This document shows, piece after piece, positions 39,013-57,223 of a stretch of 64,000 bases of DNA. Every line of letters starts with the position of its first letter. Position 1 is the first letter of the stretch. The stretch is from Planctomonas psychrotolerans. Its GTDB lineage: Bacteria > Actinomycetota > Actinomycetes > Actinomycetales > Microbacteriaceae. The stretch spans positions 806,001 to 870,000 of the forward strand of contig NZ_SJEV01000001.1 in the NCBI RefSeq assembly GCF_008642235.1, written 5' to 3'. The position numbers and the translations under genes were made by a program. The notes under the pieces were generated by a model, which was not told the origin of the DNA, made no database searches, and saw only the letters and a program-made list of their open reading frames with translations.

Positions 39013-39969
39013 ATGCAGCGGTCCGCGTCCCGTCCGAGCCTCCGTCCCGTGCTTGTCTTCCTAGCGTTGGCCTACGGTCTGGCATGGCTGGTGGCGCTTC
39101 CGCTCTGGCTGAGTGACGGACTCGGCAATCCGCTGTTCGGCGTGCTCGCCATCGCGATCATGGCCACACCCGCGATCGCGGCTCTCGTCGTGGTGCGGTT
39201 CGTCGAGCGCCCGGTGTCGATCCCGCACGCCCTCGGTCTCGCGACCTACCGTCCGCTCGGCCGTTTCTTCTTCTTCCTCGCACTCGGACTGATCCTGCCG
39301 GTGCTCCTCGTGCTCGCCGCACTCGCCGTGGGAGCGTTCCTCGGCCTGTACCCGGCGGATGTGACGAACTTCTCCGCCTTCCGGGCCGTCGTCGCGCTGA
39401 ATGATCCCACCGGTACTGTGCTCGAGACGGTGCCTATCGGGGCGCTCGTGGCGGCGCAGTTCCTCAGCGTGCTGGCGGGCGCGCTCATCAACGTCGTGCC
39501 CGCGCTCGGGGAGGAGCTCGGTTGGCGGGGCTGGCTGCTCCCCCGGCTGCTCCCGTACGGCATGATTCCGGCGCTCGTCGTCTCGGGCGCGGCGTGGGGA
39601 CTCTGGCATGCGCCGCTCATCCTGCTCGGGTACAACTACCCGTTCGCGCCGGGGTGGCTGGGCCTTCTCGCCATGGTGGGCACGACGATGGTGCTCGGTA
39701 CCATCTTCGCGTGGATGCGGCTGCGTTCGAACTCGGTGTGGCCCGCGGCGCTGGCGCACGGCTCGCTCAACGCGGCGGCGGGGTTCAGCGTGGTGTTCGC
39801 CGCCGGCGGGGAACGCATCGACACGGTGAACGCCACCATCCTCGGGTGGTCGGGGTGGCTCGTGCCTCTCGTCGTCATCGCGGTGCTGTTCGCCACCGGG
39901 CAGTTCCGTGGTCGCGCGTACGATCCGGTGCTCGCGGTGGGGCCCCGTGCTGGTGCGGGTGCGGCGTAG
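39013..39969 (+). CDS. CPBP-family intramembrane metalloprotease
   Basis: 318 residues, eight or nine helices. Motifs GEELGWRGWLLPRLL (EExxxR), SGAAWGLWHAPLILLGYNYP and LAHGSLNAAAG place it in the CPBP family. GAAAGG sits 6 nt before ATG 39013. It differs clearly from the divergent CPBP neighbour, so the pair is not a recent duplication. The stop lies at the edge of a GC-rich tandem repeat tract. Confidence 0.87.
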   Translation: MQRSASRPSLRPVLVFLALAYGLAWLVALPLWLSDGLGNPLFGVLAIAIMATPAIAALVVVRFVERPVSIPHALGLATYRPLGRFFFFLALGLILPVLLVLAALAVGAFLGLYPADVTNFSAFRAVVALNDPTGTVLETVPIGALVAAQFLSVLAGALINVVPALGEELGWRGWLLPRLLPYGMIPALVVSGAAWGLWHAPLILLGYNYPFAPGWLGLLAMVGTTMVLGTIFAWMRLRSNSVWPAALAHGSLNAAAGFSVVFAAGGERIDTVNATILGWSGWLVPLVVIAVLFATGQFRGRAYDPVLAVGPRAGAGAA

Positions 39970-40190
39970 CGCGGCACTGCACGGCACCGCACTGGTGCGG
40001 CACGGGTGCGGCGTAGCGCGGCACGGCACGGCACGGCACGGCACGGGTGCGGGTGCGGGTGCGGGTGCGGCGTAGCGCGGCACAGCACGGCGCCGCACGG
40101 CCACGGTACCGCACGGCACCGCACGGGTGCGGGTGCGGGTGCGGCGTAGCACGGTGAGCACGCCGGCGCCGCACGGGAGGACGGCGACCC
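39952..40190. repeat. GC-rich tandem simple repeats (GTGCGG and CACGG units)
   Basis: Runs of GTGCGG (for example GGGTGCGGGTGCGGGTGCGG) alternate with CACGGCACGG tracts and the phrase GCGGCGTAGCGCGGCAC, which recurs at least three times. The array fills the convergent gap between the CPBP gene and mqo and slightly overlaps the CPBP stop. Probably slippage-prone satellite DNA. Confidence 0.75.
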
Positions 40191-42256: not shown

Positions 42257-42344
42257 TCACCTGGACTGGGACTCGGACCTGGACTCGGACCTGGACCTGG
42301 ACCTGGACCGGGACTTGGACTCGGACTCGGACTCGGACCTGGAC
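42257..42344. repeat. Hexanucleotide tandem repeat (GGACYT/GGACTC)
   Basis: About 14 consecutive 6-nt units of GGACCT, GGACTC or close variants. In one frame they would encode Asp-Leu/Asp-Ser repeats and in another Ser-Pro/Gly-Pro, but no credible gene covers them. Lies in the roughly 290-bp gap between the DUF1801 gene and the HNH gene, which otherwise shows nothing. Confidence 0.75.
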
Positions 42345-42475
42345 TCCCCGCTCGAGTGTCACCGCCGTGTTCGCTCGAGCGTCCGCCGCGGCATTCATGC
42401 CGGTTCCGGCTGCACTCGTGGCGTTGCCCATCACTCGCGTCAAGTTGCCCAAGACTCGCATGAACCAACCGGTCG

Positions 42476-44029: not shown

Positions 44030-44462
44030 TGCGTCCCTTCGACAGGCTCAGGGACCGTGCGGGGTGCGTCCCTTCGACAGGCTCAGGGACCGTGCGGGGT
44101 GCGTCCCTTCGACGGGCTCAGGGACCGTATGGTGCATCCCTTCGACGGGCTAGGAACCGTGCGGGGTTGCGTCCCTTCGACGGGCTCAGGAGCGTGAGGG
44201 TAACGTCCCTTCGACGGGCTCAGGGACCGTATGGTTCGACGGGCTCAGGAGCGTGAGGGTAACGTCCCTTCGACAGGCTCAGGGACCGTAATGGTGCATC
44301 CCTTCGACAGGCTCAGGGACCGTATGGTGCATCCCTTCGACAGGCCCAGGGACCGTATGGTGCATCCCTTCGACAGGCTCAGGGACCGTAATGGTGTGTC
44401 CCTTCGACAGGCTCAGGGACCGTAATGGTGCATCCCTTCGACAGGCTTAGGGACCGTGCGGG
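44030..44462. repeat. REP-like palindrome array 1 (about 13 copies)
   Basis: Core CCCTTCGACAGGCTCAGGG then ACCGT, repeated about every 31-36 bp, with variants (GACGGGCTC, one lacking its left half, AGGCCCAGG, AGGCTTAGG). CCCT and AGGG can pair as hairpin arms. Two eroded copies follow (44466-44525). Spacers are themselves repeated (GGTGCGT, ATGGTGCAT). It fills the divergent gap between the HNH gene and the 2H gene; apart from the array no gene is present. Confidence 0.9.
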
Positions 44463-46208: not shown

Positions 46209-47613
<1,405 letters not shown>

Positions 47614-49617: not shown

Positions 49618-52035
49618 TCAGCCCCCGTCACCGGTCGGACGGATGGTGGGTCTCGACGACCGCGTCACCGGCTTCTCCTCGATGAAGCTGGCTCCGAGGA
49701 TTTCGCGCACCACGGACTCCCCGTAGCGCTGTCCACCACCGGTCGAGCCGTTCGGCGAGCGACCGGATGCGCCGGACGGACCGCCGCGACCATCGTTGCG
49801 ATTCGTGCGTGCACCGGACCCTGCGGGAGTCGCCGGCACTCCCGGCGACTCATCCGCGGGCGGGTACGACTCGTCGAGGCTGCGCGTCCAGTCGGGCTCG
49901 GGTTCGTCCGGCTCCGGCGGTTCTTCATCGGGCCACGTCGCCGAGCGGGCATCGGGCCGGGGCGCATCGGGTCGGGCCGGGCCCGGCGCGGATCCGGTGC
50001 GTGATGATGCGTCCCCCCGGGCGCTGGACTGCGGAGTTCGAGCGGGCTCGCCCGATCGGGAATCCCGCGCCGCCGGGGCGGCCTGCGGGGTCGACGCGGG
50101 CGTGCGGCGGTCGGGCGTCGGGGAGGGTGCGGCGTCGGTGCCGGATCCGGAGTTCGGGATGGCTACGGTGGCCCATCCGCCGGGCTCCACTTTCGGCGCC
50201 GCGGTCGGGGCGGGGGGCGTGGCCGCCGGCGGCGGACCATCGGCCCGGGCGGTGAAGCGAACGCGAATGCCGAGCACCGCGAGGATTGCGTTGCGCAGGA
50301 TGTCGCTCACGCCTTCCCCCGGCGTGCCGCCGCGCTCCTTGAAGCTGTCCACGTCGTTCTGGCTCGGGAAGGACAGGGCCAGCACATTGTCTTCGGAGAG
50401 CCCGCGCGGCGTCGCCGTGACCGCCACCATCCAGGCGCTGCGCTTCGTGTTCTGCACCGCTTCCACGATCTGCGGCCACGCGTCCTTCAGCTGCTGCAAC
50501 GACACGGGCATCGGGGTCGCGGGCGGCGCCGCGGCAGGCGGAGCGGGTGCGGCGGCGGGTGCGTTCGCGGCGGCGGGAGCGGTGCGTCGGGCGGCGTCCG
50601 TTCGGGGTGCGGACGTCCCTTCGACAGGCTCAGGGACCGTGGTCGGCTCAGGGACCGTGGTCGGCTCAGGGACCGGAGTGAGCTCAGCGCCCCTGGTGGG
50701 CTCGGGGACCGGCGCGGGCGTGGTGCGTCGGCCGGCATCCGTTCGGGGTGCGGACGTCCCTTTGACAGGCTCAGGGACCGTGATGGACTCAGGGACCGGA
50801 GCGGACTCGGGCACCGTGACCGGCCCGGCGGCGGCGGCGTCGGCGGCGGCACCGGCGGCGGGCGCGGGAACGACGCCGACGCGACGCTCCAGCCGTTCCA
50901 CCCGCGCGAGGGCTCCGCGGTGCGTGTCGTCACTCGCCGGAACGAGGATGCGGGCGATCAGCAACTCGAGATGCAGCCGCGGTGACGTGGCACCGGTCAT
51001 CTCGGTGAGGGCCGCGTTGGCCACATCCGCCGCCCGGGACAGCTCCGTCGGACCGAACTTCGACGCCTGAACGCGCATCGAATCGAGCTCGTCCTGCGGG
51101 ACGCCGCGCAGCACGGCCGCCGCTCCCTCGGCGGTGGTCGCGGCAACGATGATGAGGTCGCGCAGGCGTTCGAGCAGGTCCTCGACGAAGCGACGCGGGT
51201 CCTGCCCGGTCTGGATCACGCGGTCGACTGCGGCGAAGGCGCCCGCCGCGTCGGCGACCGCGAGAGAGTCGATGACCTCGTCGAGCAGTGCGCCGTGGGT
51301 GTAGCCCAGCAGGGCGACGGCGCGCGCGTATTCCACCGTCGGCCCGTCGGATCCGTTGATCAGCTGGTCGAGCAGCGACAGGGTGTCGCGCACCGACCCG
51401 CCACCGGCGCGCACCACGAGCGGCAGCACGCCGGGCGCGACCTGCACCGACTCCGTGTCGCAGAGCCGCTGCACGTAGTCGAGCATCTGGGCGGGCGGCA
51501 CCAGGCGGAAGGGGTAGTGGTGCGTGCGCGACCGGATGGTGCCGATCACCTTCTCCGGCTCGGTGGTGGCGAAGATGAACTTCACGTGCTCCGGCGGCTC
51601 TTCCACGATCTTCAGGAGCGCGTTGAAGCCCTGAGGCGTGACCATGTGCGCCTCGTCGAGGATGAACACCTTGTATCGATCGCGCGCGGGAGCGAAAATG
51701 GCCCGCTCACGCAGGTCGCGGGCGTCGTCGACGCCATTGTGACTTGCGGCGTCGATCTCGACGACGTCGAGCGACCCTCCACCGTCGCGACTCAGCTCCA
51801 CGCAACTCGGGCACACCCCGCAGGGCGTGTCCGTCGGACCCTCGACGCAGTTGAGGCAGCGGGCGAGGATGCGCGCGGAGGTCGTCTTGCCGCACCCGCG
51901 CGGGCCGCTGAAGAGATAGGCGTGATTCACCCGGTTCGAGCGGAGGGCGGACATGAGGGGATCGGTCACCTGCGACTGACCGATGAGCTCGGCGAAGTTT
52001 TCGGGCCGGTAACGGCGATACAGGGCGGTGACCAC
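49618..52035 (-). CDS. dnaX: DNA polymerase III subunit gamma/tau
   Basis: 805 residues. AAA+ module: [17 protein letters not shown], Walker [11 protein letters not shown], zinc-binding Cys set (CLNC...CGVCPSC), Walker B ILDEAHM, arginine region and collar domain to about 380. A long Ala/Pro-rich linker (about 405-510) carries two in-frame REP-like repeats read as VPEPV[EK]GTSAPRTDA, then the tau-like domain ([21 protein letters not shown]) and a disordered Pro-rich tail ending in the [15 protein letters not shown] motif. Clamp-loader subunit. GTG 52035 lies 6 nt after TATCCT; GTG 52038 is the alternative. Confidence 0.94.
50583..50818. repeat. REP-like element copies inside dnaX with a 141-bp tandem duplication
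   Basis: Full copies at 50616-50640 and 50757-50780 plus about five half copies of GGCTCAGGGACCG. The ~58-bp segment around each full copy is nearly identical and offset by 141 bp (47 codons), so the reading frame is kept. Encoded segment lies in the flexible linker of tau. Confidence 0.85.
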
Positions 52036-52319
52036 CACCTCAGGATAGTCGCGACGTCCGACCTTCCCCGAGCGCGGGGCGGAGCCGGGGACAGCCCGCC
52101 GGAGTAGCCCCGCTGCACACCCCCCGTAGTGGGACTGACCAGTCTGTCTGTCCCCCCGGCAGAATGAATTCACAAGCGGGGAAAGCGCCTCACGAGGGTC
52201 CTCCGCTCAGCGCCCAGGCTTCCCGAGCGCACCCTGCCGCACTCCGACGGCAGCGTTTCCCGCACCATCCTGGGCCGCATCACCGCAGTACACCTAGCAC
52301 CGCACCACCACCCGAACGA

Positions 52320-57101: not shown

Positions 57102-57223
57102 CGCTTCGACAGGCTCAGCGACCGTACGGCCCGTTGTCTGCGTTGCATCGCTTCGACAGGCTCAGTGACCGCATGGCCCATTGCCTGCGCTAGGTTGCGT
57201 CGCTTCGACAGGCTCAGCGACCG
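57102..57223. repeat. Three REP-like elements with an altered, still pairing stem
   Basis: Copies at 57102-57124, 57149-57171 and 57201-57223. Arms are CGCT/AGCG (first and third) and CGCT/AGTG (second, a G-T pair), against CCCT/AGGG in the other arrays; the middle CGACAGGCTC is unchanged. Spacing 47 and 52 bp. Lies between tRNA-Ser and the kinase gene. Confidence 0.85.

Follow-up and report, generated by a model that had tools for sequence, protein, structure and literature searches.

The window, which is the whole 64,000-nt stretch of Planctomonas psychrotolerans DNA that was analysed, contains dnaX with copies of a short palindromic element inside it, and three intergenic arrays of the same element. 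The features are the following.

44035-44455, plus strand: intergenic array of 11 copies at ≤4 mismatches, in units of about 34 bp
47300-47610, plus strand: intergenic array of 8 copies at ≤3 mismatches, with 15-bp right-half repeats
49618-52038, minus strand: dnaX, encoding the tau/gamma subunit of the DNA polymerase III clamp loader
50581-50660, plus strand: duplicated block A, made up of the element, 32 bp ahead of it, and 18 bp behind it
50613-50642, plus strand: full element copy 1, with an exact 22-nt core; minus-strand reading TVPEPVEGT
50645-50711, plus strand: right-half copies after full copy 1 at 18-nt spacing, decaying with distance from the full copy
50722-50801, plus strand: duplicated block B, 72 of 80 positions identical to block A at an offset of 141
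50754-50783, plus strand: full element copy 2, with one core mismatch; dnaX-frame reading TVPEPVKGT
50788-50815, plus strand: right-half copies after full copy 2, whose minus-strand reading gives VPES motifs
57102-57222, plus strand: intergenic array of 3 copies, two of them of the covarying stem type CGCT...AGCG

The genome of the window measures 3.29 Mb in two contigs. dnaX, an essential gene, was called using Pfam and a codon-usage gene finder, and its product carries the domains DNA_pol3_delta2, DNAX_ATPase_lid, and DNA_pol3_gamma3; its best named relatives are Microbacteriaceae, for example Glaciihabitans, Salinibacterium, Compostimonas, and Leifsonia, with no more than 87% identity in the best segment. 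Pattern matching with the 22-nt core, CCCTTCGACAGGCTCAGGGACC, yields an exact copy at 50617-50638 and a copy with one mismatch at 50758-50779, both in the dnaX frame and each giving a 15-residue predicted peptide, and the right-half copies, CTCAGGGACC, step by 18 nt. The preliminary description of two full and several half copies in frame in the dnaX linker is therefore upheld. Elsewhere in the window, tandem repeats at 39952-40183 (47/74-bp units) and 42263-42346 (6/12/18-bp units) have a consensus unlike the element.

The element is highly repeated in its own genome (G000), where we directly observe 627 core copies at ≤2 mismatches in 3.29 Mb and none of a reversed control pattern. Since base composition predicts about 1.6e-6 exact 22-mers in the genome, a chance origin of the repeat is excluded. 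Two congeners (G001 and G002) contain 428 and 341 copies, likewise against a control of 0. Across Microbacteriaceae the distribution is patchy: 47 of 299 genomes, from 23 of 85 genera, contain the element at least once, and many of them have few copies only; the control pattern matched once, in one genome of the 299-genome survey. Additionally, ten stretches of viral contigs (L244-L253) each carry one exact 22-nt copy, and in Streptomyces plasmids a gene annotated as encoding the DNA-repair protein Ku overlaps weak matches (E about 5) that may be chance. A 73-nt query from dnaX finds at least 199 matches in its own genome, and because the matches listed mostly start at query positions 39-43, the unit can be set at about 30 nt, ACGTCCCTTCGACAGGCTCAGGGACCGTGG, consisting of the 22-nt core plus ACGT and GTGG edges.

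The palindrome is supported by strong covariation at one stem pair, and the covariation case rests on this pair 2. It is C-G in 350 and G-C in 63 of 438 cores in G000, C-G in 90 and G-C in 40 of 131 cores in G001, and C-G in 151 and A-T in 54 of 213 cores in G052, an element-rich genome outside the genus. In G000, 414 pairs are kept versus 307 expected under independence. The remaining stem pairs vary too little to reveal covariation, and pairs 4 and 5 are mostly unformed in G052 (formed in 4 and 68 of 213). The gain of the single hairpin over shuffles is only mild, with z of -1.6 and -1.2 when the two strands are folded as RNA and -1.45 and -1.05 when they are folded as DNA, and the shortened CGCT-type variant gives z of -0.01.

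Copies also show a characteristic arrangement. Neighbouring copies have the same orientation in 85 of 110 pairs, and 30 of 37 clusters contain two or more copies. A strand polarity along the replichore was considered and dropped, as the first listed sites of contig C1 are all on the plus strand but the sampled stretches are mixed. Near 451 copies, the right half alone recurs 76 times within 70 nt downstream, most commonly at 18-nt spacing, compared to 10 occurrences of the left half alone upstream. Right-half repetition is thus a general feature of the element, which explains the half copies in dnaX; these are present as first described, but they are not peculiar to this gene.

The element fits the general REP definition, being a 20-40 nt palindrome of high copy number that is mainly intergenic, and its dnaX, mutM, and xerD-like copies resemble intragenic REPs and RPEs in that they lie in frame in conserved genes most of whose orthologs lack them (for the xerD-like gene, as judged against E. 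coli XerD). It does not fit the two tagged classes. GTAG REPs have a GTAG end and an associated Y1 transposase gene; the flank consensus of 117 intergenic copies has no unpaired GTAG end, and a Pfam search of G000-G002 found no Y1 (IS200-like) transposase PF01797, on which ground mobility driven by a RAYT was dropped. In the family, PF01797 occurs in 3 of 299 genomes, all three with zero element copies. CGTC REPs have an unpaired CGTC, an 8-9 bp stem starting with A/T, and a CCA-like tail. Copies in G000 do have a CGTC flank (74-99% per position), but the GTC within it is base-paired with GAC in both G000 and G001, the stem starts with G-C and then T-A, and G052 has different flanks. Head-to-head dimers dominate among CGTC REPs and clusters are rare, unlike the largely co-oriented and clustered copies here. 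The element is thus REP-like and lies outside both the GTAG/RAYT and the CGTC definitions.

Using our own codon-usage gene finder, we examined 1.57 Mb, or 48% of G000, and classified the 553 unique copies there (≤4 mismatches); many of the stretches were picked around known copies. We directly observe an intergenic preference, with 529 copies between genes, 6 at gene ends, and 18 in ORF calls, so that the palindrome is normally intergenic, as had been proposed. One ORF-call copy (in a 40-codon ORF of L098 that appears only with a shorter length limit) was dropped as spurious, leaving 17 intragenic copies. A subset of 1.26 Mb, made up of evenly spaced stretches and the window (itself selected for the element finding), holds 250 copies, of which 233 were intergenic, 6 at gene ends, and 11 in ORFs. 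In G001, 152 of 153 copies in 400 kb were intergenic and one was in a gene (mutM), and in G052 242 of 255 copies in 379 kb were intergenic and 10 were in genes. The gene-end copies supply a TGA stop and read GP* or GR* in 6 of 6 cases in G000 (L096, L114, L124, L137, L178, and L193) and 3 of 3 in G052 (L230, L236, and L242). Stop codons are also derived from the ends of the REPs in the relevant section of PMC3733652, where the stop is TAG rather than TGA.

The 17 intragenic copies of G000 fall in six genes: dnaX (2), smc (3), mutM (4), a xerD-like gene (5), ileS (2), and carA (1, C-terminal). The copies in smc (2-4 mismatches) and in mutM (2-3 mismatches) are degenerate. The sample of genes is small, and two of them, smc and mutM, are near each other. 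Three of these genes have the following arrangement.

L138:2306-3532, minus strand: XerD-like recombinase, with a block of about 86 residues in which PSTGSGT occurs four times and VPERVEG once
L164:1644-5186, plus strand: ileS, with an inverted element pair
L121:1430-5092, minus strand: smc, with an inverted element pair

The 86-residue block (query residues 188-273) replaces residues 159-162 of E. coli XerD, in the catalytic domain. The inverted pairs of IleS and SMC read VPELVEG or PELVEG, followed by VPSTGSG; in IleS the element lies within residues 750-796, between the catalytic and anticodon-binding domains, and in SMC at about residues 956-985, before the C-terminal head part that aligns from residue 1014. 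A search for the dnaX peptide in other proteins is therefore positive, with VPEPVEG-like variants in smc, mutM, the xerD-like gene, and ileS. The five genes entered in G052 are dnaX, tpiA, an ABC transporter, an acyl-CoA dehydrogenase, and one protein without an assigned function.

The frames used by intragenic copies are restricted. Five of the six frames of the unit are open; however, the 17 G000 copies are all read as predicted peptides of the VPEPVEG type (10) or the PSTGSGT type (7). When gene-by-frame cases are counted across three genomes, 14 of 15 fall in these two of the five open frames. In a strict set, which omits G001 mutM, the unassigned G052 protein, and the G052 acyl-CoA dehydrogenase (its copy is at codon 7, where the start is perhaps wrong), 11 of 12 cases do so, and assuming equal likelihood of the five open frames P is about 3e-4. 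The exception is a third frame, LRQAQG, in the C-terminal tail of G052 triosephosphate isomerase. The restriction is a direct observation, and we infer that it reflects purifying selection on the protein.

Within dnaX, the best self-offset is 141 bp (88 of 103 identical). Among the matches listed for the 73-nt query, only the two dnaX copies extend to the first 18 bases of the flank, and at the other loci the match to the query takes in no more than about the last 20 bases of the flank, at 82-93% identity. Because this flank is common only to the two dnaX copies among the matches listed, a local duplication that carried the element along inside dnaX is well supported by the alignments. A 141-bp tandem duplication had been proposed; the offset and the local duplication stand, although clear similarity spans only about 80 bp and the remainder is ≤50% identical. 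The insert occupies about residues 416-470 of 802. In an AlphaFold2 model built from the window protein and 35 relatives, we observe no secondary structure in residues 384-509, mostly at low confidence, and a confident folded domain from about residue 510; the model as a whole is weak (mean pLDDT 60.9, low in the ATPase part too). Given this predicted unstructured stretch, the insert most likely sits in a flexible linker and has little effect on DnaX.

The position of the insert, which we take to be near the codon range where E. coli dnaX frameshifts, might suggest that the hairpin acts on the dnaX mRNA, for example in frameshifting to a short gamma form, and a second minus-strand frame is indeed open across the region (a 148-aa ORF at 50487-50933). 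However, shuffled sequences fold as well as the 101-nt context does (z = 0.20), and the dnaX genes of two congeners lack the element. We consider such a role very improbable, and the effect on mRNA structure raised in the preliminary description finds no backing in the fold energy.

To follow the insert among relatives, we parsed 78 dnaX genes from 80 fetched loci (L028 and L038 were unparsed), of which 11 are cut by a contig end. Presence and absence of the element among related species is a direct observation. PEPVEG occurs in one of the 78, that of Plantibacter L016, at three places, where two element copies are in the tail and one is in the linker, with the element both in and around the gene; among these genes the peptide is thus not seen in distant element-free relatives. 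Additionally, a G052 dnaX found by pattern search plus fetched stretches differs in copy number and position:

L233:3-2801, minus strand: G052 dnaX, with six in-frame copies in the tail and zero in the linker

Four of the five steps between these copies are 66 nt, and from the near-identical DnaX tail G052 and Plantibacter L016 are probably of the same genus. In both congeners, G001 and G002, the element was not found in dnaX at ≤5 mismatches. The element is therefore in frame in dnaX with a copy number that differs between relatives, as had been claimed, but calling it domesticated is not supported, given its absence from the dnaX of two congeners at up to 5 mismatches.

The linkers of these congeners contain VPEP/VPES repeats, so that a clean empty dnaX site is not available among the congeners; the suggested alignment with close relatives does identify element-free genes but gives no clean insertion boundary. 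The repeats are compatible with either an old decayed insert or a native repeat, and the original insertion in dnaX may be older, or its register may come from a native PEP repeat. This raises the alternative that the peptide grew from a native VPEPxP linker repeat whose codons converged on the element through slippage or gene conversion, with no true insertion. Consistent with it, the G001 and G002 genes have the repeats without a full element, G002 dnaX uses GTC CCT GAG CCC twice, and Lacisediminihabitans L018 has SVPEPVSVPEPG in an element-free 11.7-kb locus. However, the dnaX core together with its ACGT and GTGG edges is identical to the genome-wide 30-nt unit, and 74 of the 78 parsed dnaX (11 cut) have no VPEP after residue 370. 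A similar peptide is also present in mutM, where it is missing from 28 relatives, and in the xerD-like gene, at a place that takes up 4 residues in E. coli XerD. We therefore regard growth from a native repeat as unlikely.

The evidence for insertion is clearer in mutM than in dnaX, judging from the alignments. We parsed 31 mutM loops, from 30 loci plus L220. The MutM/Fpg loop (RRGKF-L/M-W to HLGMSGQ) is built around the element and has 53, 50, and 65 residues in G000, G001, and G002, compared to 11-44 residues in 28 parsed genomes outside the genus, at whose mutM loci no element was found at ≤5 mismatches. A short element-free loop is present even in the element-rich genomes G052 (548 copies), G023 (119), and G078 (37). 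The loci of the genus are each differently arranged, a rearrangement that is directly visible:

L218: mutM of G000
L219: mutM of G002
L220: mutM of G001

One arrangement has four copies with a period of 33 nt, another has two exact copies at a distance of 81 nt together with VPEP/VPEA halves, and the third has one exact copy with two halves. With congener-specific arrangements and empty relatives, the site would have been entered either once before the species split and then remodelled, or repeatedly.

Insertion of REPs into genes has been described in other bacteria. GTAG and CGTC REPs inside genes, often replication and repair genes, are the subject of the relevant sections of PMC3733652 (Di Nocera et al. 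2013), whose authors judge a fortuitous occurrence hard to believe and speculate on mutator effects of REP insertions; they present CGTC REPs as having no dedicated transposase and mention REP-like sequences without a tag in M. tuberculosis. Neither the string 'actinobacteri' nor dnaX is mentioned in its main text. As described there, those REPs and the present element are all 20-40 nt palindromes that are mostly intergenic with some copies in genes. The element differs in having no GTAG, a CGTC that is not an unpaired tag, co-oriented neighbours, and asymmetric right-half repeats. In Rickettsia japonica, 18 genes with RPE-4/6/7 are listed in PMC3767692, with the same sites in orthologs; they include DNA polymerase III alpha, a recB family exonuclease, excinuclease subunit C, and isoleucyl-tRNA synthetase. 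In its Table 1, 4 of the 18 genes are in DNA metabolism and 4 are tRNA-related, among the latter isoleucyl-tRNA synthetase, listed for RPE-7. RPE-4 and RPE-6 are assigned to the CGTC REPs in the corresponding part of PMC3733652. Going by these descriptions, the present element is similar to RPE-4/6/7 in being a palindrome in conserved genes, at the same ortholog site, with differing element types and arrangements, in solvent-exposed positions; however, the RPE inserts are listed at 68-192 in an unrelated host, the present unit measures about 30 nt and recurs hundreds of times, and the likeness is judged on description. REP/RAYT systems and REPINs (PMC3116915) are likewise short palindromes with many copies per genome, unlike the present element in its lack of a Y1-type transposase by Pfam in G000-G002. 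Two CTTCGACAGGCTCAG cores, the same core as that of the element, lie within 30 kb of a Sphingobium plasmid, but with different, mutually complementary arms and other flanks. In the open-access literature, to which the search was confined (subscription papers lie outside it), no paper matched the sequence strings or peptides of the element. The present case is thus the known intragenic REP phenomenon with an element that belongs to neither tagged class.

The identity of the genes entered suggests a bolder reading, in which REPs preferentially enter, or are retained in, genome-maintenance genes by altering replication or repair, for example through a mutator effect, so that the insert would serve a function for the element or the host. 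Four of the six G000 genes (dnaX, smc, mutM, and xerD-like) serve replication, repair, or segregation, with ileS besides. On an assumed background share of 0.05 for genome-maintenance genes, four of six would arise by chance at 8.6e-5, or at 1.2e-3 when smc and mutM are counted once. Furthermore, dnaX was entered again in another genus, and the mutM insert is found in 3 of 3 congeners. A similar lean appears among the GTAG and CGTC REPs of other bacteria in the intragenic sections of PMC3733652, and in the 4 of 18 R. japonica genes in DNA metabolism in the table of PMC3767692. On a strong version, unrelated REP-type elements would converge on replication, repair, and segregation genes because inserting at such places is favoured or rewarded, for instance through a tuned mutation rate or fork handling that aids spread, a doubtful proposition; the cases of such convergence would be DnaX (two genera), MutM (three species), SMC, and the XerD-like recombinase, with IleS beside them, and we hold this grouping to be equally speculative. 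However, only one of the five G052 genes (dnaX) is of the genome-maintenance class, the element-rich G052, G023, and G078 outside the genus spare mutM, and the congeners have no element in dnaX. Additionally, smc and mutM are neighbours in a small gene sample, and inserts are easiest to recognise in conserved multidomain proteins. Because the sample is small, G052 gives one of five, and element-rich genomes spare mutM, we retain preferential targeting as a bold, unproven, and rather improbable idea.

Altogether, the best explanation, and one that we think is probably correct, is widespread insertion of a REP-like element, which persists inside genes only in tolerated frames and at flexible sites and expands there by in-frame local duplication. 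A non-autonomous REP-like hairpin element would multiply chiefly between genes, moving by what is presumably transposition-like copying, and would occasionally enter genes. Intragenic copies would be kept mostly where the peptide read in that frame is small, flexible, and rich in Pro/Glu or Ser/Gly, and mostly at protein linkers, loops, or tails. After entry, they may grow and shrink through in-frame local duplication and tandem repetition of the right half. The dnaX insert would then be close to neutral for DnaX.

Intragenic REP insertion is known from other bacteria; here dnaX and one repair gene have been entered in more than one species. A single element family is found in dnaX of two genera and in mutM of three congeners, with short-loop relatives as controls. 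Some of these controls are element-rich. Together with the controls, the multi-species entries into dnaX and mutM make targeting versus simple tolerance directly testable. For annotation, VPEPVEG and PSTGSGT strings in the predicted proteins of such genomes can derive from the element.
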